DNA from: an uncultured Pelagibacteraceae bacterium
GTDB lineage: Bacteria > Pseudomonadota > Alphaproteobacteria > Pelagibacterales > Pelagibacteraceae
Direction of reading: 5' to 3'
Length of the DNA stretch: 54,588 bases
NCBI GenBank assembly: GCA_902588585.1
Contig: CACIPQ010000007.1
Location: 1 to 54,588 of the forward strand
Shown: one piece after another, positions 1 to 16,044 of the stretch
Position numbering within the stretch: position 1 is the stretch's first letter
How the letters are laid out: each line of letters opens with the position of its first letter
Translations under genes and position numbers: made by a program
Notes under the pieces: generated by a model
The model's input: only the letters and a program-made list of their open reading frames with translations
Database searches by the model: none
Told to the model about the DNA's origin: nothing

Positions 1-785
1 AAATGAGATCATTACCATCTGGAATAGACCAAAGATCACCGGCAAGACACCCAGACTGGTTAGGCCCAGACGATCTTGCATTGAAAGTCCAAGAACTAAG
101 AGAATTAACAGACAATCAAGTTCCAATACAATTAAAATTAGGAGCTGCCAAAGTTTATGATGATGTACGTATGGCCGCGAAATGTGATCCTGATTCAATT
201 TATTTAGATGGAATGGAAGGATCTACCGGAGCTGGCCCACATATCGCTGCGGCAAATACTGGAATTCCTGGGATCGCAGCTATCAGAGAAGCAAGAAGAG
301 CTTTAGATGATATAGGTCAAACTGGTAAAGTCACATTAATTTATGCAGGCGGTGTTCGAGATGGAGCTGATTTAGCAAAAGCTTTAGCTTTGGGTGCTGA
401 TGCAGTTGCTATTGGAACTGGATCAATGATTGCATTAAATTGTAATAAAGAAATTCCAGGAGTAGATTTTGAAAAAGAAATGGGAGTTAAAGCCGGACAT
501 TGTTACCATTGTCATACCGGACGTTGTCCTGTTGGAGTTGCAACACAAGATCCAAAATTGAGAAAAAGATTAAACCCAGATGACGCAGCTCTTAGAGTTT
601 ATAACTATCTTCACTCAATGGCTCTTGAATTACAATTATTAGCACGAGCATGCGGAAAAACAAATGTTCACTCTTTAGAACCAGAAGATTTAGCGGCATT
701 AACAATGGAAGCTTCTGCTCTTGCAAAAGTGCCTTTAAGCGGAACAAATCATACAGTTGGAGTTGATGATTTCCACAAAATTTAG
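1..785 (+). CDS. glxD: GlxD/MgsC-type glutamate synthase-like FMN protein, C-terminal part (5' end cut by window)
   Basis: The open frame runs to the window edge, so the ATG at position 3 is probably internal and only the last ~260 residues are visible. They form the C-terminal half of a glutamate-synthase FMN barrel: a GGVRDGADLAKALALGADAV phosphate-binding segment around residues 116-135, followed by a cysteine motif C167-x2-C170-x4-C175 then PVGVATQ, which in the GOGAT family ligates a 3Fe-4S cluster. Stand-alone proteins of this kind are called GlxD or, in the methylamine pathway, MgsC (large catalytic subunit of N-methylglutamate synthase, which joins methylamine-derived nitrogen to a glutamate backbone). 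The neighbouring Amt channel and soxBDAG/mgdABCD-type operon support the MgsC reading by inference. Partner subunits (GlxB/MgsA, GlxC/MgsB) and a GmaS-type ligase would be expected just left of the window. Ordinary GOGAT activity cannot be excluded. Confidence 0.85.
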   Translation, partial: MRSLPSGIDQRSPARHPDWLGPDDLALKVQELRELTDNQVPIQLKLGAAKVYDDVRMAAKCDPDSIYLDGMEGSTGAGPHIAAANTGIPGIAAIREARRALDDIGQTGKVTLIYAGGVRDGADLAKALALGADAVAIGTGSMIALNCNKEIPGVDFEKEMGVKAGHCYHCHTGRCPVGVATQDPKLRKRLNPDDAALRVYNYLHSMALELQLLARACGKTNVHSLEPEDLAALTMEASALAKVPLSGTNHTVGVDDFHKI

Positions 786-792
786 ATAATTT

Positions 793-1182
793 ATGGCAAA
801 GAAAAAAAAGATAAAAACAAAAAAAATCTCTAAAGCAAAAGAAACTGCTAGAGAAAAAATGATCGGACAGCATATCGGATACCGGTATGATGTAAATTTA
901 GTTCCAGATTATAAAAAAATTACACCTTTCTTAAAAAAATATGTACAGCATATGGGATGGGACGATCTAAACTGGTTAGAAGATGTTCATATGGGCTATG
1001 AAGAAGGACGACCAGCTGTTTTTTGTAGAAATGCAAATGGATGGGTTACTATTCCAAAAAAAATTAAATTGCCAGACAATCAGCAAGATAGAGATATGAT
1101 CGCAAGAGAACTACTAGTTAAGTTTCAAATGTCTCCAAGACACCCGCTTGTTGATTTAAAAAAAGCATATAAAAAAAGTTAA
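793..1182 (+). CDS. uncharacterised 129-aa basic protein between glxD and amt
   Basis: It starts 7 bases after the glxD stop and is very likely in the same transcript. The first ~22 residues are extremely lysine-rich (MAKKKKIKTKKISKAK), followed by a globular-looking part with aromatic residues (HMGWDDLNWLEDVHMGYEEG) and a basic C-terminus. There is no signal peptide or membrane segment and no cysteine pair. I recognise no family. The lysine-rich tail could bind nucleic acid or an acidic partner, but this is only a composition argument. Its position between a GOGAT-like subunit and the ammonium channel suggests a role in methylamine or ammonium assimilation. Codon use and AT content look like its neighbours, so it is probably a resident gene. 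Confidence 0.7.
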   Translation: MAKKKKIKTKKISKAKETAREKMIGQHIGYRYDVNLVPDYKKITPFLKKYVQHMGWDDLNWLEDVHMGYEEGRPAVFCRNANGWVTIPKKIKLPDNQQDRDMIARELLVKFQMSPRHPLVDLKKAYKKS

Positions 1183-1224
1183 AAACACACACTTTCAAGT
1201 TGTTATAAAATTTAAAAGCCTCTC

Positions 1225-1256
1225 CAAACAACAATTCTGCGTCATTGTACTGTTTG
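1225..1256 (+). promoter_or_regulatory. hairpin in the amt leader
   Basis: An imperfect inverted repeat: left arm CAAACAACAAT at 1225-1235, loop of 8 bases, right arm ATTGT (1244-1248), a 2-base bulge AC, then TGTTTG (1251-1256). That gives 11 base pairs interrupted by one bulge. It lies 39 bases before the amt start codon. No T-tract follows, so it does not look like an intrinsic terminator. It could be a leader structure or an operator for a nitrogen-responsive regulator; the function is not shown by the sequence. Confidence 0.35.
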
Positions 1257-1295
1257 TCGCACCCAATACAATATTCCTTAACAAGAGGAGGGAAT

Positions 1296-2675
1296 ATGAC
1301 TGACGGATTAGATGCCTTAACTGTCATATTTACGGAATTTTACTACTGGATAACAGTAGTACTCATGTTTTTAATTCACGTGGGATTCTGTATGTATGAA
1401 GTAGGGGCTTCACGTTATAAACACCACCAACATACCTTAATGAAAAATACCATGCTGATACCTCTGGTAACAGTCACATGGTTTTTCTTTGGTTGGTGGA
1501 TATATTGGGCTTTCCCAACCGGACCAGGTATTGCACCGTCAATAATGACGGAAAGTTCTGGTTTGATTTTAGGCGGAGGATTTGGAGCAAATGATCTTGC
1601 AAATCCAACAAGCTCAATAATGGCGGTAAACTTAAATGATCATATCAATGGAGTGTTCTGGGCTGCGTTCTTATTATTTTCTTGGACAGCAGCTTCGATC
1701 GTTTCAGGAGCATTAATTGAAAGAATTACAACTTTTGCATTCGGAATTTTAGCGATTGCAATTGGTTCTGTATTTTGGACAATTGATGCAGCTTGGGGCT
1801 GGCACTTCGATGGATGGATGGTCAAACTTTTAGGTTATCATGATGCATATGCATCAGGTGTAATTCACGCTTGTGCCGGAGGATTTGCCTTAGGTGTGCT
1901 TGCAGTTTTAGGCGCACGTATTGGAAAATTTTCATCTAGCGGTGAACCAAGAAACATAGGACCAAGAAACCCTTGGTTAGTTTGTGTAGGACTGTTTTGT
2001 ATTTACACAGGTTTCTGGGGATTCTATGCAGCGTGTAATATACCAATATTTGATCTTGGACCTGAGTACGGAATGGAAGGAGTAACATTCTATACTGCAA
2101 CCAACATCTATATAACACCAACGACGCTTAGTGGTATTACTTTGAACTTCTTAATGTCTTTAGCTGGCGGTTTGTTAGCGGGATATTGGGTTTCAAAAGG
2201 CGATCCATTCTGGACTTATTCAGGTGGACTAGCCGGTATCATCACAGCTTCTGCTGGTAACGATTTATATCACCCAATACAATCACTGCTTATAGCAGGA
2301 GTTGGAGTATGGGTTGCGTACAAAATGCATTACTGGGTTGAACGTAAGTTCAAAATCGATGATGCAGTTGGCGCAGTTGCTGTTCACGGATACGCAGGAG
2401 TTGTCGGACTTATAATATGTGGTTTTGTTCTATGGGGATATCCTTCATCAGGATATGGAGACGCTTACGCAGCGATCAACCCAATGGGAATGATTATCGG
2501 AGCTATTATAATGTTCGGAGTTCTTGGTTTCTTACCAGGCTATATCATAGCTAAAATACTTCATGCAGCAGGTAAACTACGTATACCGCGCGAAGTAGAA
2601 TTAGCTGGGTTAGACTATAATATTATGGAGGCTGCTAAAAAAGATGAAAAAGCAGTTTCTTCAGCTAGTAGATAG
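1296..2675 (+). CDS. amtB: ammonium / methylammonium transporter (Amt family)
   Basis: A 459-aa polytopic inner-membrane protein with about 11 hydrophobic helices, typical of Amt channels that pass NH3/NH4+ (and methylammonium) into the cell. The twin pore histidines are visible: His191 in VIHACAGG and His364 in VAVHGYAG. An in-frame ATG exists at 1245, but the start at 1296 (MTDGLDALTV) is preferred because GAGGAGGG lies just upstream and because the hydrophobic protein begins there. A one-helix protein follows 16 bases downstream, and the pair ends at a strong terminator. No glnK (PII), the usual amtB partner, is adjacent. The location between a GlxD/MgsC-type gene and a sox/mgd operon suggests methylated-amine as well as ammonium uptake; that substrate assignment is inference. 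Confidence 0.95.
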   Translation: MTDGLDALTVIFTEFYYWITVVLMFLIHVGFCMYEVGASRYKHHQHTLMKNTMLIPLVTVTWFFFGWWIYWAFPTGPGIAPSIMTESSGLILGGGFGANDLANPTSSIMAVNLNDHINGVFWAAFLLFSWTAASIVSGALIERITTFAFGILAIAIGSVFWTIDAAWGWHFDGWMVKLLGYHDAYASGVIHACAGGFALGVLAVLGARIGKFSSSGEPRNIGPRNPWLVCVGLFCIYTGFWGFYAACNIPIFDLGPEYGMEGVTFYTATNIYITPTTLSGITLNFLMSLAGGLLAGYWVSKGDPFWTYSGGLAGIITASAGNDLYHPIQSLLIAGVGVWVAYKMHYWVERKFKIDDAVGAVAVHGYAGVVGLIICGFVLWGYPSSGYGDAYAAINPMGMIIGAIIMFGVLGFLPGYIIAKILHAAGKLRIPREVELAGLDYNIMEAAKKDEKAVSSASR

Positions 2676-2691
2676 AAAGGAGAAATAACTT

Positions 2692-2937
2692 ATGGCTACA
2701 GTAACTAATTGGGTACAGCATCTAACGACCGATACTGACTCATCGACTGACGGAATACAGGTTGCCGGGGAAATTTATCCTATGGTTGGAACCGAAGGAT
2801 GGCTACTTTTATTAGGTGTTATTTTTTGGTTAGCATGGCATTTTGCAACTGCTTCTGGAGAATCGGAAGAGCAAAGAAAGTTGGCTAAGAAGTCACCTGG
2901 ACCAAATGCTCATAAAAATAATATACCTGAGTGGTAA
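2692..2937 (+). CDS. small one-helix membrane protein linked to Amt (81 aa)
   Basis: It starts 16 bases after the amt stop with its own Shine-Dalgarno (AAAGGAG at 2676-2682) and shares the terminator that follows. The protein has a polar N-terminus of ~30 residues, one hydrophobic helix around residues 36-52 (WLLLLGVIFWLAWHF), and a charged Lys/Glu-rich tail ending in PEW. No family is recognised. The arrangement (channel gene followed by a one-helix protein) is like known small subunits or regulators of membrane transporters, so an accessory role for Amt is a reasonable hypothesis. It might instead be a general membrane microprotein. Coding status is well supported by the RBS, operon position and terminator. 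Confidence 0.75.
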   Translation: MATVTNWVQHLTTDTDSSTDGIQVAGEIYPMVGTEGWLLLLGVIFWLAWHFATASGESEEQRKLAKKSPGPNAHKNNIPEW

Positions 2938-2956
2938 TCTGAAATATTAAAAAATT

Positions 2957-2985
2957 GGGCGCTAATTTATTTAGCGCCCTTTTTT
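2957..2985 (+). terminator. intrinsic terminator of the amt operon
   Basis: A perfect 9-bp stem GGGCGCTAA (2957-2965) / TTAGCGCCC (2971-2979) with loop TTTAT, followed by six T (2980-2985). It lies 19 bases after the stop of the 81-aa gene. This is one of the clearest terminators in the window. Confidence 0.92.
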
Positions 2986-2997
2986 ATTTTAGAAATT

Positions 2998-3141
2998 ATG
3001 GAAAACGAAGATAAAGATAAAAATCAAAGACCATCTAGAATGATTAATATAGCTTTTCCAAAAGCCAGATACGGTTTTTTCTTAGCTATATTTATTATTA
3101 TTATAGTTTTATTAGTTCTTTACAAAGATTTGTTATTATAA
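2998..3141 (+). CDS. 47-aa single-helix membrane microprotein
   Basis: A short open frame with ATG at 2998 and TAA at 3139-3141. The product begins with a polar, charged stretch (MENEDKDKNQRPSR), then residues 26-43 form a strongly hydrophobic helix (GFFLAIFIIIIVLLVLY), and it ends KDLLL. It begins 13 bases after the terminator T-tract and stops 3 bases before the converging soxG stop, so it fills an otherwise empty slot exactly. No good Shine-Dalgarno or separate promoter is obvious, so expression depends on terminator read-through or an unseen promoter. I do not recognise a family. The basic patch before the helix predicts the N-terminus inside the cell. Confidence 0.5.
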   Translation: MENEDKDKNQRPSRMINIAFPKARYGFFLAIFIIIIVLLVLYKDLLL

Positions 3142-3144
3142 ACT

Positions 3145-3735
3145 TTAAACTCCAGCATACCCAAACTCTAATGCAGAGTCAGTGATATGATGATAAAATG
3201 TTTCACCAAAACTTCTTAAGGCTAACAAATTGAACGTATCCGGATCGTTATTAACAAAATCAATCACAACAGTAATTCCATTAAAAACTGTTCCAGCACA
3301 ATTATCTACTTGAATTTCATTAATATTAATTGGACATCCTTTTTTCAAAACTTCTTTTGCTTGAGGTCCTTTTATTTGTATTACAGCTCTTGAATGAGAA
3401 ATATCTGTAATAGCAAAATTTTCCCGATCACACTTGTTTTTAATATTACTAATTATATTTTTTTTACTAGATATGATTAACCAAGTTCTTGGTGCGCTCC
3501 AAAGAATTCTTGTTTCTTTATTTGCCGTTACTTTTGGATTATCTAAAGGCAATTCTAAATTTTCTAATTTGATAGTGTTGGGTTGAATTTTTGATTTTTT
3601 ATATTGAACCAAATGAATTATTGCTAAGTTTTTTACTTCTGAAATTTCAAGTAATTTTTTTCCACTTTGTTTTTGGTAATTTCCAAAGCGACCTTTTTTA
3701 TGAATATGTTCTAAAGAAGTCACAGCTAATTTCAT
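3145..3735 (-). CDS. soxG: heterotetrameric sarcosine oxidase gamma subunit / N-methylglutamate dehydrogenase subunit D
   Basis: Last gene of the soxB-soxD-soxA-soxG operon; its ATG overlaps the soxA stop by 4 bases (ATGA type). At 196 aa it matches the small gamma subunits. Segments such as RILWSAPRTWLI and HSRAVIQIKGPQAKEVL resemble the folate-domain-like fold of SoxG. In the complex, gamma packs against alpha and has a mainly structural role. The homologous subunit of N-methylglutamate dehydrogenase is MgdD; sequence alone does not separate the two here. Its stop lies 3 bases from the stop of a converging 47-aa ORF. Confidence 0.85.
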   Translation of the reverse strand: MKLAVTSLEHIHKKGRFGNYQKQSGKKLLEISEVKNLAIIHLVQYKKSKIQPNTIKLENLELPLDNPKVTANKETRILWSAPRTWLIISSKKNIISNIKNKCDRENFAITDISHSRAVIQIKGPQAKEVLKKGCPININEIQVDNCAGTVFNGITVVIDFVNNDPDTFNLLALRSFGETFYHHITDSALEFGYAGV

Positions 3736-6728
3736 GATCTTACCCTTTCACCTTTAGGATCTACATAATGTGAGGAAACAATCTCTACTTCAATACTTTT
3801 ATTTTTTAATGGTGACATGGCATAAAGTTTTTCTCCTATTCTTTTTTTTCCTTCTTTAAGAATAGCTAAAGAAAAAGGATTGTTATATTCAACACTCCAA
3901 CAAGAAGCTGATATATGCCCGAGTTTTGGATTAGGTAATGCTGCATTTTTGTCTTTAACTAAATGAGATCCTTCAGGAATCATGGTTTTTTTATCTACAG
4001 GTATTACGCCAACAATTTTTTCTCTATTAATATTTAAAAACGCCTCTCTATTTAAAGATCTTTTTCCAATAAAATCTTTTTTCTTGCTTAACATACCTTC
4101 AAGAGAAAGGTCAGAAGGGATTGTTCTTCCATCAATTTCCGATCCTGCTACGTGTCCCATCTCTATTCTTAATGTTGAAAGAGCTTCAGTACCATACGGT
4201 TGTATATTCATGTTTTTTCCTAATTCTATTATTTTTTTCCACATAAAAATTCCATGATCAGATTCAACGTTGATTTCATAAGCCAATTCTCCAGAAAATG
4301 AAATTCTGAAAACTCTTGCTGGAATTCCAAATAAATTTTCTTCTTTGAATCCCATAAATGGAAAACCTTCGTTTGAAACATCGGTTTCAGGAAAAAGTTT
4401 TTTTAACAAATTTCTTGATTTAGGACCAGCTACAGCCGCTCCTGCCCACTGTTCAGTTGTTGATAAGACATTTACATCTAATTCAGGCCAAACCACTTGT
4501 AAATAATATTCTAAATGTGCCAAAACATTTACTGCCTGTGCTGTTGTTGTTGTCATATGAAAATGATTTTCTGAAATTCTAGTTGTTGTTCCATCATCAA
4601 AAACAATTCCATCTTCTCGCAACATCACACCATATCTTGCTTTTCCAACCGGAAGTTTCATCCAAGCATTTGTATAAACTCTATTTAAAAACTCCGCTGA
4701 ATCAGGACCTTTAATATCTATTTTACCTAAGGAAGTTACATCACAAACTCCAACATTTTTTCTTACGTTTGCGCCTTCTCGTTTAGCAGCTTGTTGTAAG
4801 GTTTCATTTCCTTGTTTGTAATAACGAGGTCTTAACCAAAGACCAGCATCAACAAATACTGCATTATTTTTTTCATGCCATAAATGCATTGGAGATTTTC
4901 TTGTGGGTCGGTAATGTTTTCCTACTTCTCTTCCTACAATTGTTCCAATTGTAACCGCTGTATATGGAGGTCTAAAAGTAGTATGCCCAACCTCTGGGAC
5001 AATTTTATTTTCTATATTTGAAACTAATTGTAGTCCATTTAAGTTACTTGTTTTTCCTTGATCTGTAGCCATACCAAGAGTTGTGTATCTCTTAACATGT
5101 TCAATGGATCTAAACCCTTCTCTTATAGCTAGTTCAATGTCCGAAACATAAACATCATTTTGAAAATCCACACATCTTTTGTATTCTTTATTTTTTGGCA
5201 ACGGCATACACCAAAACTTCTCATAATTACCATAACTTTTTTCGTTAGATATCGGAGGATCAATTTTTATATTTTTTTTAGTTAGTTTATTTGATACTTC
5301 AAAACCTTTATCAAAACCATCTTTCAATGATTTTTTTAAAGTAAAAGAACCATTCGCTGACCCTATTGTAGTTTCATTTTGACGAGATTTATTGGGTATA
5401 AATGCACTTATCATTTCATCAAATTTTAATTTGTTTCCAGACTGTGACGATAGATGAACAGTAGGAGTCCAATTTCCAGAAATACATAAACAATCACAAG
5501 GAATACTCTCTAAATTTTCATAACCAGACTTATCATTATTTAATTTTCCAACTAAAGCTGAGCTTATTCTTAATTGACCCTCTGTGTTGGCTACCGCATG
5601 AGAAAATTTAATAGTAATACCCAAATCTTTTGCTTCTTTGACCACTGTACTTTCTGAAACGTTTCTAACATCAACAATTAATGGATCAATTCCATTTTTT
5701 TTAAATTCTATTGCTGTATCATATGCACTATCATTATTAGTAAAAATAATTGGTTTCTTTCCAACCAAAACACCATACTTTTTTATATATTCTTTTGCTG
5801 CCGCGGCTAATAATATTCCTGGCCTATCATTGTTTCCAAATATCAAAGGTCGTTCTATTGATCCCGTAGAGATCACAACTTCTTTTGCTCTTATGTACCA
5901 AAGCTTTTGTCTTGGTGTATATTTACTTGGAGATTGAATATGGTCCTTTGTTCTTTCAAACATTACCATCATGTTATGATCATAATATCCAAAAACTTGA
6001 GATCTGTTTTTAACAATTACATTGGGCATTGATTTTAGCTGCTCTACGGTCTCATCTGCCCATTCCTTTCCTGTTTTATTTCCAATAGTGACCTGATCAG
6101 CAAGCAAGCTTCCTCCAAACTTAGATTTATCTTCAGCCAAAATAACTCGAGCTCCATTTTTTGCTGCAGACAGAGCACTTGCCAATCCAGAAGGACCCGA
6201 ACCTACAATCAAAATATCACAATGTTCAAATTTGTGCTCATATCTGTCTGGATCTGGTTTTAAAGGAGCCACACCTAACCCAGCAGCTTTTCTGATAATA
6301 GGTTCATAAATTTTAGACCAAAAGCTTTTTGGCCACATAAAAGTTTTGTAATAGAATCCAGCTGGAAAAAATTTACTTAAAAAATTGTTTATTGCCCCAA
6401 AATCAAAAGATACAGATGGCCAACAATTTTGACTTTTTGCGACTAATCCTTCAACCAACTCAACTTCTGTTGCAACAGCATTAGGCTCAGTTTTTGCTCC
6501 GTTATACAGTTGAACTTTAGCGTTAGGCTCATCCTCCTTAGACCCTATAAAACCTCTTGGCCTATGATATTTAAAACTACGACCAACTAAATGAACTCCA
6601 TTTGCTAGCAAAGCCGATGCTAGCGTATCACCTTCATAGCCAAAGTATTTTTTTCCATTAAATTTAAATGAAATACTTTTTTTTCTATTAATGAAACCTT
6701 CTTTATCTAATCTATATTCTTGTGTCAT
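3732..6728 (-). CDS. soxA: heterotetrameric sarcosine oxidase alpha subunit / N-methylglutamate dehydrogenase subunit C
   Basis: 998 aa, the usual length for SoxA. Domains in order: an N-terminal ferredoxin-like fold (FGYEGDTLASALLANG, then GRSFKYHRPRG) without cluster cysteines; an NAD-binding Rossmann domain beginning near residue 170 (CDILIVGSGPSGLASALSAA); a middle pyridine-nucleotide oxidoreductase part; and from about residue 610 a GcvT-like folate-binding domain (DVTSLGKIDIKGPDSAEFLN). In this family the N-methyl group removed by the beta subunit is trapped on tetrahydrofolate by the GcvT domain, giving 5,10-methylene-THF. Substrate may be sarcosine or N-methylglutamate (the MgdC homologue). 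The gene overlaps soxG by 4 bases and follows soxD by 8 bases. The downstream C1 acceptor enzyme Fhs is encoded about 2.5 kb away. Confidence 0.93.
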   Translation of the reverse strand: MTQEYRLDKEGFINRKKSISFKFNGKKYFGYEGDTLASALLANGVHLVGRSFKYHRPRGFIGSKEDEPNAKVQLYNGAKTEPNAVATEVELVEGLVAKSQNCWPSVSFDFGAINNFLSKFFPAGFYYKTFMWPKSFWSKIYEPIIRKAAGLGVAPLKPDPDRYEHKFEHCDILIVGSGPSGLASALSAAKNGARVILAEDKSKFGGSLLADQVTIGNKTGKEWADETVEQLKSMPNVIVKNRSQVFGYYDHNMMVMFERTKDHIQSPSKYTPRQKLWYIRAKEVVISTGSIERPLIFGNNDRPGILLAAAAKEYIKKYGVLVGKKPIIFTNNDSAYDTAIEFKKNGIDPLIVDVRNVSESTVVKEAKDLGITIKFSHAVANTEGQLRISSALVGKLNNDKSGYENLESIPCDCLCISGNWTPTVHLSSQSGNKLKFDEMISAFIPNKSRQNETTIGSANGSFTLKKSLKDGFDKGFEVSNKLTKKNIKIDPPISNEKSYGNYEKFWCMPLPKNKEYKRCVDFQNDVYVSDIELAIREGFRSIEHVKRYTTLGMATDQGKTSNLNGLQLVSNIENKIVPEVGHTTFRPPYTAVTIGTIVGREVGKHYRPTRKSPMHLWHEKNNAVFVDAGLWLRPRYYKQGNETLQQAAKREGANVRKNVGVCDVTSLGKIDIKGPDSAEFLNRVYTNAWMKLPVGKARYGVMLREDGIVFDDGTTTRISENHFHMTTTTAQAVNVLAHLEYYLQVVWPELDVNVLSTTEQWAGAAVAGPKSRNLLKKLFPETDVSNEGFPFMGFKEENLFGIPARVFRISFSGELAYEINVESDHGIFMWKKIIELGKNMNIQPYGTEALSTLRIEMGHVAGSEIDGRTIPSDLSLEGMLSKKKDFIGKRSLNREAFLNINREKIVGVIPVDKKTMIPEGSHLVKDKNAALPNPKLGHISASCWSVEYNNPFSLAILKEGKKRIGEKLYAMSPLKNKSIEVEIVSSHYVDPKGERVRS

Positions 6729-6736
6729 GAATAAGC

Positions 6737-7003
6737 TTATAATTCCTCAGTTAATTTAGCTGTTTTAAAAATTTCGTGGGTTGATGTGTCTCTTAAGACT
6801 TTGAACCATTGCCTACATCCAGCTACATGATGCCATAATTCTGAGTGTTTACCCCTTGGATTATCTCTTAAATAAATAAAATTATCCCAATCTTTATCCG
6901 AAACTTCTTTTCCCAGTTCTGGTCTTTTTGTATTTGAATCTCCTCCGTATGAAAATTCATTTTGAGATCTTAAACCACAATGAGGGCATTTAATTTCTAA
7001 CAT
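6737..7003 (-). CDS. soxD: sarcosine oxidase delta subunit / N-methylglutamate dehydrogenase subunit B
   Basis: 88-aa zinc-binding small subunit. The four expected ligands are visible: Cys6 and Cys9 in CPHCG, then His59 and Cys63 in HHVAGCRQWF. In heterotetrameric sarcosine oxidase this subunit anchors the complex; MgdB is the homologue in N-methylglutamate dehydrogenase. It sits 3 bases downstream of soxB and 8 bases upstream of soxA, in the canonical B-D-A-G order. Length and motif spacing are normal. Confidence 0.9.
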   Translation of the reverse strand: MLEIKCPHCGLRSQNEFSYGGDSNTKRPELGKEVSDKDWDNFIYLRDNPRGKHSELWHHVAGCRQWFKVLRDTSTHEIFKTAKLTEEL

Positions 7004-7006
7004 TTA

Positions 7007-8263
7007 TTATCCTATCCAAGTTTTTGTTCCCAGGCCTTTTTCATCAATAAGATGGCCTGTATTAAATCTATTAAGCCGATATTTTGAACTTAGTTCATGA
7101 ACCTCATCTTTTGCAATTGTGTAGGCAAAAGTCCATCCAGAAATTGGTGTTGCTTTAAATCCTCCGTAGCACCATCCACAATTTAAATAAACACCATCAA
7201 TATGAGTTTTGTCGATGATAGGGGAACCATCCATAGACATATCCATGATACCACCCCATGTCCTTAACATTTTTAATCTACTTAAATTAGGAAACATAGC
7301 CACACCTTCTGTTAAAACATGTTGAAGAGTAGGGAGATTTCCTCTTTGCGCATAACTATTATAACCGTCTAAATCTCCACCCATAACCATTTCACCTTTA
7401 TCAGATTGGCTACAGTAAAAATGACCAGCACCGAAAGTTACTACATGGTCAAGAAAAGGTTTTACTGGTTCCGAAACACAAGCTTGAAGAACATGAGACT
7501 CTATAGGCAATTTCATATTTAATTTTTCAGCAAGCAAAGATGTATTTCCCGCAACACACAACCCAACTTTTTTTGTTTTAATATTTCCCTTAGAAGTTCG
7601 AACACCTTCAATTTTTCCATTTTGCACATCAAAACCTGTAACTTCACAATGTTGAATAATATCTACACCCATAGAATTTGCCTGTCTTGCATAACCCCAT
7701 GCTACAGCATCATGTCTTGCTGTTCCTCCTCTTGGCTGCATCAATCCTCCAAAAATTGGAAAACGTGCTGATTCAGAAAAATCTGCAAATGGAATCATTT
7801 TTTTTAATTCATCTCTTCCTAACATAACAGCATCAATACCATTCAATCTCATTGAATTACCTCTACGATAAAATATATTCATTTGTGCATCTGAATGTGC
7901 AAGATTGATAATTCCTCTGGGCGAGTACATTACGTTATAATTTAATTCCTGAGATAAATTTTCCCACATCTTCATCCCTTGTTCGTAAAAAAGACCATTA
8001 GGATCAAACATATAGTTGGATCTAAGAATTGTTGTATTTCTTCCAACATTTCCTCCTCCTAACCATCCTTTTTCTATGACAGCAATATTAGTAATTTTAT
8101 GTTCTTTAGCTAAATAATATGCGGTAGCGAGACCGTGTCCTCCAGCTCCTATAATTATTATGTCGTATTCTTTTTTAGGCTCAGAGTCTTTCCAAGCCAC
8201 TTCCCAGTCTTTATGGTTGCTAAATGCATTTTTAATCAAACTGAATATAGAATACTTTTGCAT
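7007..8263 (-). CDS. soxB: sarcosine oxidase beta subunit / N-methylglutamate dehydrogenase subunit A
   Basis: 418-aa FAD-dependent amine oxidoreductase of the DAO/MSOX family, the catalytic subunit that oxidises the N-methyl group. A dinucleotide-binding motif IIIIGAGGHGLATAYYLA lies at residues ~35-52. The motif RGGTARHDAVAWG has His184 at the place where tetrameric sarcosine oxidases bind FMN covalently. First gene of the operon; the promoter must lie in the 96-bp divergent gap shared with the EamA permease. The homologue in the methylamine pathway is MgdA. Given GlxD/MgsC and Amt nearby, N-methylglutamate is a serious candidate substrate; sarcosine from glycine-betaine breakdown is the alternative. 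Confidence 0.93.
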   Translation of the reverse strand: MQKYSIFSLIKNAFSNHKDWEVAWKDSEPKKEYDIIIIGAGGHGLATAYYLAKEHKITNIAVIEKGWLGGGNVGRNTTILRSNYMFDPNGLFYEQGMKMWENLSQELNYNVMYSPRGIINLAHSDAQMNIFYRRGNSMRLNGIDAVMLGRDELKKMIPFADFSESARFPIFGGLMQPRGGTARHDAVAWGYARQANSMGVDIIQHCEVTGFDVQNGKIEGVRTSKGNIKTKKVGLCVAGNTSLLAEKLNMKLPIESHVLQACVSEPVKPFLDHVVTFGAGHFYCSQSDKGEMVMGGDLDGYNSYAQRGNLPTLQHVLTEGVAMFPNLSRLKMLRTWGGIMDMSMDGSPIIDKTHIDGVYLNCGWCYGGFKATPISGWTFAYTIAKDEVHELSSKYRLNRFNTGHLIDEKGLGTKTWIG

Positions 8264-8359
8264 ACAATAATCTTATATAACCATAGTAAATTGTAAAAGG
8301 CCTTAATTAAGAGCGTCTTTTTTGGCTAAACAAAGAGGATAAAAAGTCTACAATCAAGA

Positions 8360-9220
8360 ATGGATATAAAAGTATTTTTAGCTGTTATCTTTGCTGCTTT
8401 TCTACATGCATTGTGGAACAGCATGGTTAAATCTCACAAAGATAAGCATGTGGCAGTTGCAGCAATTGTCTTAGGGCACGTTCCTGCGTCCGTCTTTATT
8501 ATTTTTTTGGTGCCAATGCCTGCCATAGAAAGTGTACCTTACATTATAGCAAGCGCAGTCATCCACCAAGGTTATCAATGGTTTTTACTTACAGCCTACA
8601 GATATGGAGATTATACAAGAGTTTATCCTATTGCGCGCGGAACAGGACCTGTGGTTGTTACAATTATTTTATTATTATTTTTTGGAGTAAAATTAAGCGT
8701 TTATGAATTAATAGGTATAATTATAATTTCTATTGGAATTTTAAGCATAAGCACCCAAGATCGGCATTCATTCTTTCCATGGATAGCACGTAGGAATGCT
8801 AGAGCAATTAGTTTTGCTTTGCTAACAGGATTATTTATCGGAGGATATTCTATAATTGATGGTTATGGAGCAAGAGCTAGCTTTTCTCCATTAAGTTTTA
8901 TGGGTTGGTCGTTTGTTGTTAATGCTTTGATTTTTCCAATACTTTTAAAAGTTATGGATAAACCAGATGTTGTTAAAAGAGTTTTCAGTGAAGCTAAATT
9001 GTTATTTTGGTTTGGAGGGACTATTTCATATATAGTTTATGGAATTGTTGTATGGGGGTTTACTCAGGCACCTATACCTTTAGTTAGCGCTTTAAGAGAA
9101 ACAAGTGTAATCATAGCTCTTTTAATTGGTACGATCTTTCTTAAAGAACGTTTTACAGTTCTTAAAGCTTTATCTATTTTGATTATTTTCTCAGGAGTTA
9201 TTCTGCTTAAATTTTTTTAA
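8360..9220 (+). CDS. EamA/DMT-superfamily permease
   Basis: 286 aa with about ten hydrophobic helices arranged as two EamA repeats; the first repeat ends near ISIGILSIS and the second near [13 protein letters not shown]. The C-terminal motif [18 protein letters not shown] with a following KERF is typical of the family. Substrates of DMT permeases range widely over metabolites and amines and cannot be read from sequence. It diverges from soxB and converges on fhs, sharing a 4-base stop overlap (TTAA). Being framed by C1 genes suggests transport of a methylated amine, amino acid or pathway intermediate; this is inference. The nearest purine-rich stretch (AAGAGGA) is ~20 bases upstream of the ATG, so the start is a little uncertain. 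Confidence 0.88.
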
Positions 9221-10902
9221 AAAAGACCTTCTATATCACCTTTGTTGTTCAATTTAATAGAGTCCGCAGCAGGAACTCTTGGAAGTCCAGGCATAGTCAT
9301 AATTGATCCACAAACAACAACTAAAAATTCTGCACCACTCGACAATCTAATTTCTCTAATAGGTAAAATGTGGCCTGAAGGAGCCCCTTTTAACTTGGGA
9401 TCGGTTGAAAAACTATATTGAGTTTTTGCAATACAAACTGGAAATCTTCCAAACCCAGCTTGCTCTATTCTTTTAACCTGTTCTTTAATTTTTTCATCTA
9501 CCTCAATTCCTTTTGCTTTATAAATTTCTTTGGCAATTTTTTCTATTTTTTCAAGGATAGGAGTCTCATCAGAATATAGATATTTAAATTTATTTTTTTC
9601 ACTTTTATTACATAATTCAACTACATTATTTGCCAAATCTTTTGTTCCATTTCCTCCATCTGCCCAATGTTTGCAAAGACTTACTTTAACACCAGTTTTT
9701 GAGCAGTGTTCTTCAATAATTTTAACCTCTTTATCTGTATCTGTAACAAAATGATTTATTGCCACCACAACTTCTAAACCAAACTTTTTTATGTTTTCAA
9801 TATGTCTTTCAAGATTAGGCAGACCTTTTTTAAGCGCTTCTATATTTTCTTTTTTAAGATCGTCTTTTTCTACTCCACCATGCATCTTCAAAGCCCGTAT
9901 TGTTGCAACAAGAACAACGCAACTAGGTTGGATTCCTGCTTTGCGACATTTAATATCCAAAAATTTTTCAGCACCAAGATCAGCACCAAAACCAGCTTCT
10001 GTAACAACATATTCAGATAATTTTAAAGCAGTTTTTGTTGCAAGGATTGAATTACATCCATGCGCAATATTTGCAAATGGACCTCCATGGATAATAGCAA
10101 GATTATTTTCAAGAGTTTGAACCGCATTAGGCCTGATTGCTTCTTTTAACAATACCGTCATAGGCCCATGAGCTTTTAGATCTTTTGCATAAACAGGTTT
10201 TTTGTCTTTCGTGTAAGCAACCGTTATGTTTCCTATTTTTTCCTCTAAATCTTTTATGCTATTTGATAAGCAAAAAATTGCCATGACTTCCGAGGCAACA
10301 GTAATATCAAAACTATCATCTCTAGGGATGTTACTTTTTAATTTTTCAAGATTAATTTTTATTTTTCTAAGTCCTCGATCATTTAAATCAACTACGCGTT
10401 TCCAAACTATATTTTCAGGATCTATATTTAATTTATTTCCCCAGTAAATATGATTGTCTATTAAAGCGGATAAAAGATTATGAGCAGAAGTTATTGCATG
10501 AAAGTCGCCGGTAAAATGTAAATTGATTTGTTCCATAGGTATAACTTGAGCATAACCACCACCAGCTGCTCCACCTTTCATTCCGAATGAAGGTCCTAAA
10601 CTGGGCTCCCTTAAACAAACAATCGATTTTTTCCCAATTTTATTTAAACCATCACTTAAACCAACAGAGGTTGTCGTTTTTCCTTCTCCAGCAGGAGTAG
10701 GTGTTATAGCTGTTACTAGGATTAAATTACTTTTTTTTTCTTTTAACTTATCGATATATTCAAAATTTAATTTTGCTATGTGACGACCCATAGGGCTAAA
10801 AGAAAAAGGATCGTCAGGCACATTGAATTTTCCAAGTACATCTCCAATTGGTTTTATTTTAGCGGCTCTTGCAATTTCAATATCAGATTTAATTTTACTC
10901 AT
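9217..10902 (-). CDS. fhs: formate--tetrahydrofolate ligase
   Basis: 561 aa, close to the usual ~557. The ATP-binding P-loop [13 protein letters not shown] is at residues ~67-79, and [18 protein letters not shown] is characteristic of the enzyme, which makes 10-formyl-THF from formate, THF and ATP (reversible). I chose the ATG at 10902 because AGGAG lies 5 bases upstream; the alternative GTG at 10908 lies inside that Shine-Dalgarno. It follows ygfZ by ~27 bases and is probably co-transcribed with it. With the sox/mgd operon it completes a path from N-methyl groups via methylene-THF to formyl-THF and formate (methenyl-THF steps must be encoded elsewhere). Confidence 0.96.
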
Positions 10903-10929
10903 CGGCACTCCTATACATAAAAAATAAGG

Positions 10930-15055: not shown

Positions 15056-15186
15056 ATGACATACCCCCTAAAACGTGTTTTTTCTTCATATTATCCCCAA
15101 AAAAAAATAAAAAAGCTAATAAAATCAACATTTTTTGATAAAAAAAAAGCTTCAAATTAACTTTCTTATTGGGTACCTTCCCGGAA

Positions 15187-15238
15187 CGTTTGAAGAGAGA
15201 GGGAGATAACTCGAACTTTGGACGGTTTAAATTTAAAC
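15187..15238 (+). promoter_or_regulatory. structured 5' leader of proteorhodopsin (stem plus 14-bp palindrome)
   Basis: Two abutting elements. First, CGTTTGAAG (15187-15195) can pair with CTTTGGACG (15216-15224) over 9 pairs, three of them G-U; G-U pairs favour an RNA rather than a DNA role. Second, GTTTAAATTTAAAC (15225-15238) is a perfect 14-base palindrome. They begin immediately next to each other and end 35 bases before the start codon. The rest of the 218-bp intergenic region holds A- and T-tracts and the weak promoter-like TTGATA (15135-15140). A cis-regulatory RNA or an operator is possible; nothing here matches a riboswitch I know. Confidence 0.4.
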
Positions 15239-15273
15239 TAACAATTAGAAAACTAAACGAAAGGGAGGTTTTC

Positions 15274-16044
15274 ATGAAAAAACTAAGCATGATTGCAATA
15301 GCTACTCTTGGATTCTTAGGAATCACGAGTTCAGCTAACGCTGCTACTGCCATGTTAGCTACTAACGACTTCGTAGGAATTACGTTTTGGTTAGTGTCAA
15401 TGGGTATGTTAGCAGGTGCTGTATTCTTCTTCTTAGAAAGAAATACAGTTGCTGCATCGTGGAGGACATCTGTAACAGTAGCTGGATTAATTCAGTTTAT
15501 TGCATTTGTTCACTACATCTACATGAGAGACATCTGGGTTCAAACAGGAGACACGCCAACAGTATACAGATATATTGATTGGTTAATCACTGTTCCTCTT
15601 CAGATTGTTGAATTCTATTTAATTTTAGCTGCTGTTAGAAAAGTTCCAGGATCTATGTTCTGGAGATTGCTAATAGCTTCATTAGTAATGTTGATCGGTG
15701 GTTACCTAGGTGAAGCCGGTTACATCCAAGAATTTGTTGGTTTCATAATTGGAATGGCAGGTTGGATATACATTCTATTTGAAATCTTTTCTGGAGAAGC
15801 TGGAAGAGCTGCTGCGAAGGGTGGAAACAAAGCTGTTGCCACTGCGTTCGGCGCTATGAGAATGATAGTTACAATTGGTTGGGCTATTTATCCTCTAGGT
15901 TACGTATTTGGTTACCTAGCTGGTGGAATTGACACTAACACGTTGAACATCATCTATAACTTAGCTGACTTCGTTAATAAATTAGCATTTGGTCTAGTTA
16001 TCTGGGCTGCTGCTATGCAGAACACTTCTCTATCTAAAAGATAG
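15274..16044 (+). CDS. proteorhodopsin, blue-absorbing type (light-driven proton pump)
   Basis: 256-aa seven-helix retinal protein with an N-terminal signal peptide (residues ~1-23). With an offset of 5 from the reference numbering all key residues align: His80 (H75), Asp102 proton acceptor (D97) in RYIDWL, Gln110 at the tuning site (L/Q105) in TVPLQIVEF, Glu113 proton donor (E108), and Lys236 Schiff-base lysine (K231) in ADFVNKLAFG. Asp and Glu at the carboxylate sites mean an outward proton pump; Gln means blue tuning. The start at 15274 is chosen over the in-frame ATG at 15169 because AAGGGAGG lies 5 bases upstream and a signal peptide follows. It is monocistronic or the major transcript, as a strong terminator follows. 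No retinal-synthesis genes are in the window. Confidence 0.97.
   Translation: MKKLSMIAIATLGFLGITSSANAATAMLATNDFVGITFWLVSMGMLAGAVFFFLERNTVAASWRTSVTVAGLIQFIAFVHYIYMRDIWVQTGDTPTVYRYIDWLITVPLQIVEFYLILAAVRKVPGSMFWRLLIASLVMLIGGYLGEAGYIQEFVGFIIGMAGWIYILFEIFSGEAGRAAAKGGNKAVATAFGAMRMIVTIGWAIYPLGYVFGYLAGGIDTNTLNIIYNLADFVNKLAFGLVIWAAAMQNTSLSKR

Follow-up and report, generated by a model that had tools for sequence, protein, structure and literature searches.

The 54,588-nucleotide stretch analysed here, referred to as the window, is the entire contig C7 (G000:C7:1-54588) of an uncultured Pelagibacteraceae (SAR11) genome, G000, which is 992 kb in size, 86.6% complete and 30.6% G + C. Of major interest is a four-gene operon near its left end, soxBDAG, which carries the label of sarcosine oxidase and, to judge by phylogeny, is very probably an N-methylglutamate-dehydrogenase-type (Mgd-type) enzyme. 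A truncated glxD gene nearby belongs to a conserved second module, termed set 1 (FADox-GS495-GlxB-GlxC-GlxD-hyp129), which may be the missing SAR11 route of dimethylamine breakdown. The finding is a variant of the N-methylglutamate pathway and partly rests on a published proposal. This pathway was proposed for SAR11 in 2011, and the passages concerned left open which of two sox operons encodes N-methylglutamate dehydrogenase (Sun et al., PMC3160333). As the pathway idea had thus been published, the remaining part is the choice between sox paralogues. Gene identities, operon conservation, clades, residues and distributions were computed; substrates are inferred.

An earlier note had reported a GlxD-type gene, amt, soxB-D-A-G and fhs within 11 kb, and all are found where it placed them:

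3..785, + strand: 3′ part of glxD of the paralogous set 1, an FMN/Glu_synthase-domain protein (PF01645, 1e-54, profile positions 167-368 of 369)
793..1182, + strand: hyp129, a conserved small set 1 protein with no Pfam family (in 62/62 SAR11 loci with at least 7.2 kb of right flank)
1296..2675, + strand: amt, an Amt-family transporter (PF00909, 3.6e-47; under the curated TIGR00836 cut-off)
2692..2937, + strand: hyp81, a small protein after amt
2938..3144, no strand: site of gmaS in relatives, with the gene missing and both flanks kept (gmaS is present in 62/62 SAR11 loci with the same right flank)
3145..3735, - strand: soxG/mgdD-type gamma subunit (TIGR01375, 1e-23, under its cut-off; PF04268, 5e-08)
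3732..6728, - strand: soxA/mgdC-type alpha subunit of 998 amino acids (TIGR01372, 1326 bits; PF13510, PF17806, PF01571)
6737..7003, - strand: soxD/mgdB-type delta subunit (TIGR01374, 6.5e-34, 0.5 bit under the cut-off; PF04267)
7007..8263, - strand: soxB/mgdA-type beta subunit (TIGR01373, 677 bits)
8360..9220, + strand: EamA-family transporter between soxB and fhs (PF00892; the same gene is beside sox in relative L052)
9217..10908, - strand: fhs, formate-tetrahydrofolate ligase of C1 oxidation (NF010030, 892 bits)

The transcription order of the sox genes, B-D-A-G or beta-delta-alpha-gamma, and the four-subunit make-up are those of MgdABCD as described for Methyloversatilis universalis in PMC3160333 and for Ruegeria pomeroyi in PMC13390433. 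The heterotetrameric sarcosine oxidase of Corynebacterium sp. U-96 (PDB 1vrq) shares family, domains and subunits with the window operon but differs from it in clade. SoxA displays Fer2_4, FAD, SO_alpha_A3 and GcvT domains.

Among 146 places with soxA in Alphaproteobacteria, gene neighbourhoods were read at 129; the remainder were 15 repeats within a genus and the two G000 copies. Named plasmid loci were added. The SoxB tree holds 75 of 140 rows, chosen after the identity table, with all labelled rows in and 65 unlabelled rows out. The window and all 10 rows linked to mgs/gmaS are found in one 38-row clade with a support of 100; L124, which carries both mgs/gmaS and glyA labels, is counted among the former. 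Two mgs/gmaS-linked rows, L052 and L239, are on the window's own branch. Named mgs-gmaS-sox clusters are those of Aminobacter sp. SR38, Rhizobium leguminosarum BIHB 1148, Falsirhodobacter algicola, Methylobacterium bullatum and Sinorhizobium sp. RAC02. The window operon thus shares a clade with sox operons that adjoin mgsABC and gmaS; biochemically proven MgdA/MgdC of M. universalis and R. pomeroyi are not among the tree rows. All 14 rows that have glycine-betaine-type or glyA genes as neighbours or are a PDB sarcosine oxidase fall outside the clade (group support 90). The first of these labels, 'GBT', denotes more than 50% identity to either the 174-amino-acid fragment or the DAO-GcvT protein of contig C2, and is therefore defined by C2's own neighbours. 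Forcing the window clade to the sarcosine side costs 94 log units and is rejected in the approximately unbiased (AU) test (p-AU 0.00076); this p value presumes a group named ahead of the tree, and the identity table was known by then. The SoxA tree (43 of 141 rows; L267, labelled SET1, and 3 of 13 GBT/GLYA rows left out) gives the same split, with a support of 100 for the Mgd-side clade. A DEKG motif near the SoxB C-terminus is present in the window and in 10/10 mgs/gmaS-linked rows and in 0/14 of the others, nine of which have DEHG. In both trees, which the earlier note had proposed as a check, the window is on the Mgd side and not with proven sarcosine oxidase. Because of this grouping the sox label probably hides the substrate, as that note suspected and as had already been published for SAR11.

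Besides the window copy, G000 has a second long soxA gene, on contig C2. In the SoxB tree the paralogue from C2 is placed with proven sarcosine oxidase, and C2 SoxB matches the PDB sarcosine oxidase chain 1vrq_B with 587 bits versus 465 bits for window SoxB. Its neighbours are a Cys/Met-metabolism enzyme, ETF-QO, both ETF subunits and a DAO-GcvT protein with the make-up of dimethylglycine/sarcosine dehydrogenase, a setting that fits glycine-betaine use. Sarcosine would then be handled by the C2 operon and not by the window operon. The 174-amino-acid fragment at the start of C2 was considered as BHMT-like, but no family matched it.

The window has no left flank, since it is a whole contig. The glxD start is off the contig and its N-terminal part is missing, as the PF01645 match covers only the profile positions given above; fuller relatives have 459 amino acids (L052) or a 471-amino-acid frame (G018). 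The left flank, where the earlier note had proposed to look for glxB, glxC and a gmaS homologue, was therefore read in 80 kept relatives of the first gene, almost all titled Pelagibacteraceae (SAR11), either single-cell or metagenome-assembled genomes. To the left of glxD are found genes for a TmoX-like binding protein, Tdm (NF053776, 1152 bits), the 448-amino-acid flavoprotein FADox, GS495 (495 amino acids), GlxB and GlxC. GlxB, GlxC and a glutamine-synthetase-family gene are thus present there, but GS495 is below the GmaS cut-off and the set is paralogous. Among 67 SAR11 loci with at least 4.5 kb of left flank, GS495 and FADox are each found in 66, Tdm in 54 and TmoX in 51, shorter loci being unable to reach either of the last two. 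On the right, hyp129, Amt and true GmaS each occur in 62/62 loci with at least 7.2 kb of flank, and a second MgsABC lies beside gmaS in 16 of these; the MgsC of this second MgsABC shares ~84% identity with the Aminobacter protein. The 12 rows of window-type GlxD separate in the tree from the 14 of true MgsC, and each of the two clades has a support of 100. Judged by sequence, the window GlxD is not the MgsC-type subunit it had been taken for, but part of a separate paralogous set with its own glutamine-synthetase-like partner, GS495, a flavoprotein and hyp129. The gene set had been read as one methylamine pathway; the Mgd-type sox part of that reading is supported, but the GlxD part is of a separate set, so that two pathways had been mixed. 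In our view this separate set acts in dimethylamine use and not in methylamine use.

GS495 scores 287.8 bits against the GmaS model TIGR03105, whose cut-off is 469.6. Lys30, Asp177, Glu186 and Trp300 of RhGmaS, which are tied to the amine site and its gate (PMC7948447), are kept in 29/29 aligned GS495 rows, and the ammonium-binding Asp and Glu of glutamine synthetase (Escherichia coli GlnA) are absent from all 29, as in GmaS. Dimethylamine is a poor but accepted substrate of RhGmaS (PMC7948447); the fold can therefore take it. With its ligase, GlxB/C/D-like subunits and amine-site residues, set 1 resembles GmaS-MgsABC (RhGmaS, PDB 7cql; PMC7948447), but differs in the GS495 score, in the clade of GlxD and in the additional flavoprotein and hyp129. 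In a glutamine synthetase tree some branches (E. coli GlnA, PuuA) are very long; nothing but the distinction between GS495 and GmaS was taken from it. The 495-amino-acid gene of L052 was considered as GmaS and dropped, as the TIGR03105 score and PDB matches show the 441-amino-acid gene to be GmaS. Two GS495 copies, G576:C10:63564-65027 and G296:C274:3058-4527, have an in-frame stop (TAA and TGA, respectively) and represent pseudogenes or sequencing errors. In plasmids of Paracoccus sp. TOH (L122, 10523-13470) and Ruegeria sp. SCSIO 43209 (L123, 10650-13470), a divergent GS495-like gene and a second glutamine-synthetase-like gene are found near a type 1 glutamine amidotransferase; this pair perhaps represents a gamma-glutamyl route for another amine.

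The predicted model of FADox (pLDDT 87) has fold matches at Z 30-38 with L-proline dehydrogenase, sarcosine-oxidase beta subunit, monomeric sarcosine oxidase, and dimethylglycine dehydrogenase and oxidase. The modelled fold fits an N,N-dimethyl amino acid as substrate but is no proof of it. Identity to dimethylglycine oxidase/dehydrogenase and monomeric sarcosine oxidase is ~20%, and FADox has no GcvT half. The small protein hyp129 is strongly conserved; in G232 and G100, too, it lies close to GlxBC or FADox and to Mgd-type sox. The confidence of its predicted model (mean pLDDT 62.5) is too low to place the protein.

In a class survey, GS495 was found in 39 of 385 alphaproteobacterial genomes (E <= 1e-80) from 21 families, a few of the matches being partial or only 53-62% identical. 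GlxB- and GlxC-like genes follow GS495 in 30/30 loci cut out (15 families), and FADox is at most 1.5 kb upstream in 21 of the 30. A GntR/FCD regulator takes the place of FADox in L312, and six further loci have a similar frame there. L239 of G065, a 1.4-Mb genome of another family, has GS495, FADox, MgsCBA, soxGADB and part of Tdm within 20 kb, and shows the combined system in highly compact form. Among 197 Pelagibacterales genomes, window-type SoxB (at least 79% identity) occurs in 104 and GS495 in 95, at least 3 of these 95 matches being short pieces at contig ends; both are present in 90, SoxB alone in 14, GS495 alone in 5 and neither in 88. The two genes share a contig in 75 of the 90 genomes, and in each of these 75 they are no more than 30 kb apart (median 19 kb). 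As for G000 itself, its Tdm gene stops at base 732 of contig C1 and the window opens within glxD; FADox, GS495, GlxB and GlxC are probably in the assembly gap between C1 and C7, which are not joined.

In Tdm-bearing genomes the distribution of GS495 complements that of PF11927, the haem subunit of Dmm, a marker whose use was checked in G252 only, where the PF11927 gene is behind dmmD-, dmmA- and dmmB-like genes. Tdm is present in 34 of the 385 genomes, of which 26 have GS495 without strong PF11927, 5 strong PF11927 without GS495, 0 both and 3 neither (Fisher p = 2e-4, or p = 5e-4 with weak PF11927 matches counted). By family the numbers are 13 with GS495, 4 with strong PF11927 and 1 with neither (p = 0.0016). 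Among the 26 genomes with Tdm and GS495, PF11927 is weak in two and strong in none; Tdm and GS495 share a contig in 15 and are within 20 kb in 14. Those with neither are G000 (gap), G378 and G256, which is 94% complete, has a weak PF11927 match and is of the same genus as two GS495 genomes. No PF11927 match at E <= 1e-10 was found in G000, itself 86.6% complete.

A route can be proposed from these data. Tdm would make dimethylamine from trimethylamine N-oxide (TMAO), and GS495 would join it to glutamate with ATP, forming gamma-glutamyl-dimethylamide. GlxBCD would transfer the dimethylamine onto 2-oxoglutarate and reduce the product to N,N-dimethylglutamate, from which FADox would take off one methyl group to give N-methylglutamate. 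The window operon would take off the last methyl and return glutamate: the flavin of the SoxB beta subunit would oxidise the N-methyl group, the GcvT-like half of the alpha subunit would hand the C1 unit to tetrahydrofolate, and fhs-linked oxidation of the latter would recover energy. Set 1 is then predicted to act at the same step after Tdm as DmmDABC (PMC5520151), with other protein families. Every set 1 substrate and reaction here, like the substrate of the window operon, is inferred; that set 1 is a dimethylamine branch feeding the window operon appears somewhat better than an even prospect, and the window operon together with this branch is, with moderate confidence, the best explanation overall.

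The alternative that survives best, although an unlikely one, is a plain monomethylamine N-methylglutamate pathway in which set 1 GlxBCD would be another synthase, GS495 a divergent GmaS, and dimethylamine would be demethylated by a monooxygenase isoenzyme of DmmDABC, as suggested in PMC8918994. The GmaS amine-site residues of GS495 are consistent with it, and because gmaS is found in all 62 SAR11 loci but a second MgsABC beside it in only 16 (MgsABC was looked for in these loci only), set 1 GlxBCD may have to serve GmaS too. In those 16 loci, however, a true MgsABC-GmaS pair is present alongside set 1; the plain pathway also gives FADox no role, and GS495 never occurs with the strong Dmm marker in the Tdm-bearing genomes. 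A little less probable again is that the substrate of set 1 and of the window operon is a different secondary amine or another N-methyl amino acid, the link to TMAO genes being only partial. Tdm is absent from 13 of the 39 GS495 genomes and more distant GS495-like genes are found in other gene sets, such as the Paracoccus and Ruegeria plasmids; the frequency of Tdm and TmoX beside set 1 in SAR11, where some loci are too short to reach them, and the complementarity of GS495 with the Dmm marker argue the other way. Very improbable is an ordinary heterotetrameric sarcosine oxidase, the name NCBIfam gives all four subunits (SoxA and SoxB pass the curated cut-offs, SoxG and SoxD do not, and the soxA model scores the window copy above that of C2, 1326 versus 1119 bits), since both trees, the AU test, the closer sarcosine-oxidase relative on C2 and the DEKG motif contradict it.

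Several observations tell against the preferred combination of an Mgd-type operon and a dimethylamine branch. The SAR11 branch comes early on the Mgd side, window SoxB being near its base and below unlabelled rows, and the SET1-labelled L267 falls outside the window SoxB clade. The Mgd side includes L285 (Ruegeria conchae) and L286 (Phaeobacter inhibens), which have no mgs/gmaS within 10 kb; because it holds such sox operons, other N-methyl amino acids are possible substrates. For set 1, an L-proline dehydrogenase has the highest Z among the structural matches of FADox, and G000 is incomplete, its own copy probably being in an assembly gap. To these are added the SAR11 genomes with window-type SoxB and no GS495 or the reverse, the GS495 genomes without Tdm, the fragmentary GS495 matches and the single check of the Dmm marker. 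Weak PF11927 matches (1e-14 to 1e-16) occur in G065, G256 and G380, G263 has a divergent GS495 (61%) plus PF11927, and over all 385 genomes regardless of Tdm the exclusion is not significant (p = 0.066). Searches of open-licence PubMed Central gave no description of either gamma-glutamyl-dimethylamide or N,N-dimethylglutamate from bacteria, the title matches being to mammalian tissue.

Neither gmaS nor mgsABC is beside the window sox genes; gmaS adjoins sox in L052, and MgsCBA does so in G065. The window and L052 align over 461 bp at 87% up to the gmaS start, then over a 42-bp match at 81% at the soxG end, and no glutamine-synthetase domain was found in G000 (86.6% complete). The absence was first read as an assembly gap, but the intact flanks in the window suggest local loss, or else an assembly error. 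The window may thus represent a strain without methylamine entry that has kept the rest. Of 47 genomes with Tdm or GS495, 34 have a GmaS match above the TIGR03105 cut-off, and 10 of the 39 GS495 genomes have no GmaS match at E <= 1e-120. One of these ten, G202 (98% complete), carries FADox-GS495-GlxBCD adjacent to Mgd-type sox; from such genomes, set 1 may feed the dehydrogenase without a methylamine branch, and the window, with gmaS missing, fits this. At 2957-2990, just past hyp81, is a terminator-like hairpin and T-run, read by eye and common to L052, and a 47-residue frame at 2998-3141, very similar in DNA to L052, has one hydrophobic stretch and is a possible small membrane peptide.

As to the remaining genes, Amt is a possible ammonium/methylated-ammonium channel. 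The sox genes and fhs do not form one unbroken operon, since the EamA transporter on the opposite strand separates them. L052 alone among the 62 relatives with a sufficient right flank has sox genes right of glxD; the tight glxD-sox spacing of the window is therefore unusual. A rhodopsin gene is found at 15169-16044 (PF01036, 1.6e-50).

Published locus tags of HTCC1062 fit the set 1 gene order of the relatives. Passages of PMC3160333 give 1302 as opuAC, 1303 as GcvT-like, 1304 as 'monomeric sarcosine oxidase' and 1313-1316 as glxBCD-glnT; 1305 is glnT in PMC5069961, and 1309 is hypothetical and 1310 amt in PMC2704228. From gene order, 1304 would therefore be FADox and 1305-1308 GS495-GlxBCD, and the 2011 set 1313-1316 would be true MgsABC-GmaS. 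Adjacency to fhs marks 1281-1284 as the probable window-type soxBDAG of HTCC1062, with 1064-1067 as the other sox operon. In sulfur-limited stationary cells versus control, paired values in PMC5069961 are 0.22 and 0.62 for opuAC (1302) and 0.19 and 0.78 for glnT (1305); one value of each pair is for mRNA and the other for protein. HTCC1062 can use TMAO as its only nitrogen source, with far weaker growth than on ammonium, and is described as without dmmDABC, for whose step an unknown isoenzyme is suggested by the authors (passages of PMC8918994).

SAR11 bacteria are described as the most abundant heterotrophs of the oceans (PMC3160333). They are thought to make dimethylamine from TMAO and yet, according to passages of PMC5520151, are without dmmDABC, which has been called a metabolic bottleneck. 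It is slightly favoured that SAR11 and at least 12 other alphaproteobacterial families have a new glutamate-conjugation route for dimethylamine that bypasses DmmDABC and free methylamine. Should set 1 supply the missing step, the notion that dimethylamine accumulates for want of consumers would need revision. The paralogue question of 2011 receives a testable answer in the window operon, and the dimethylamine claim can be tested with five genes.

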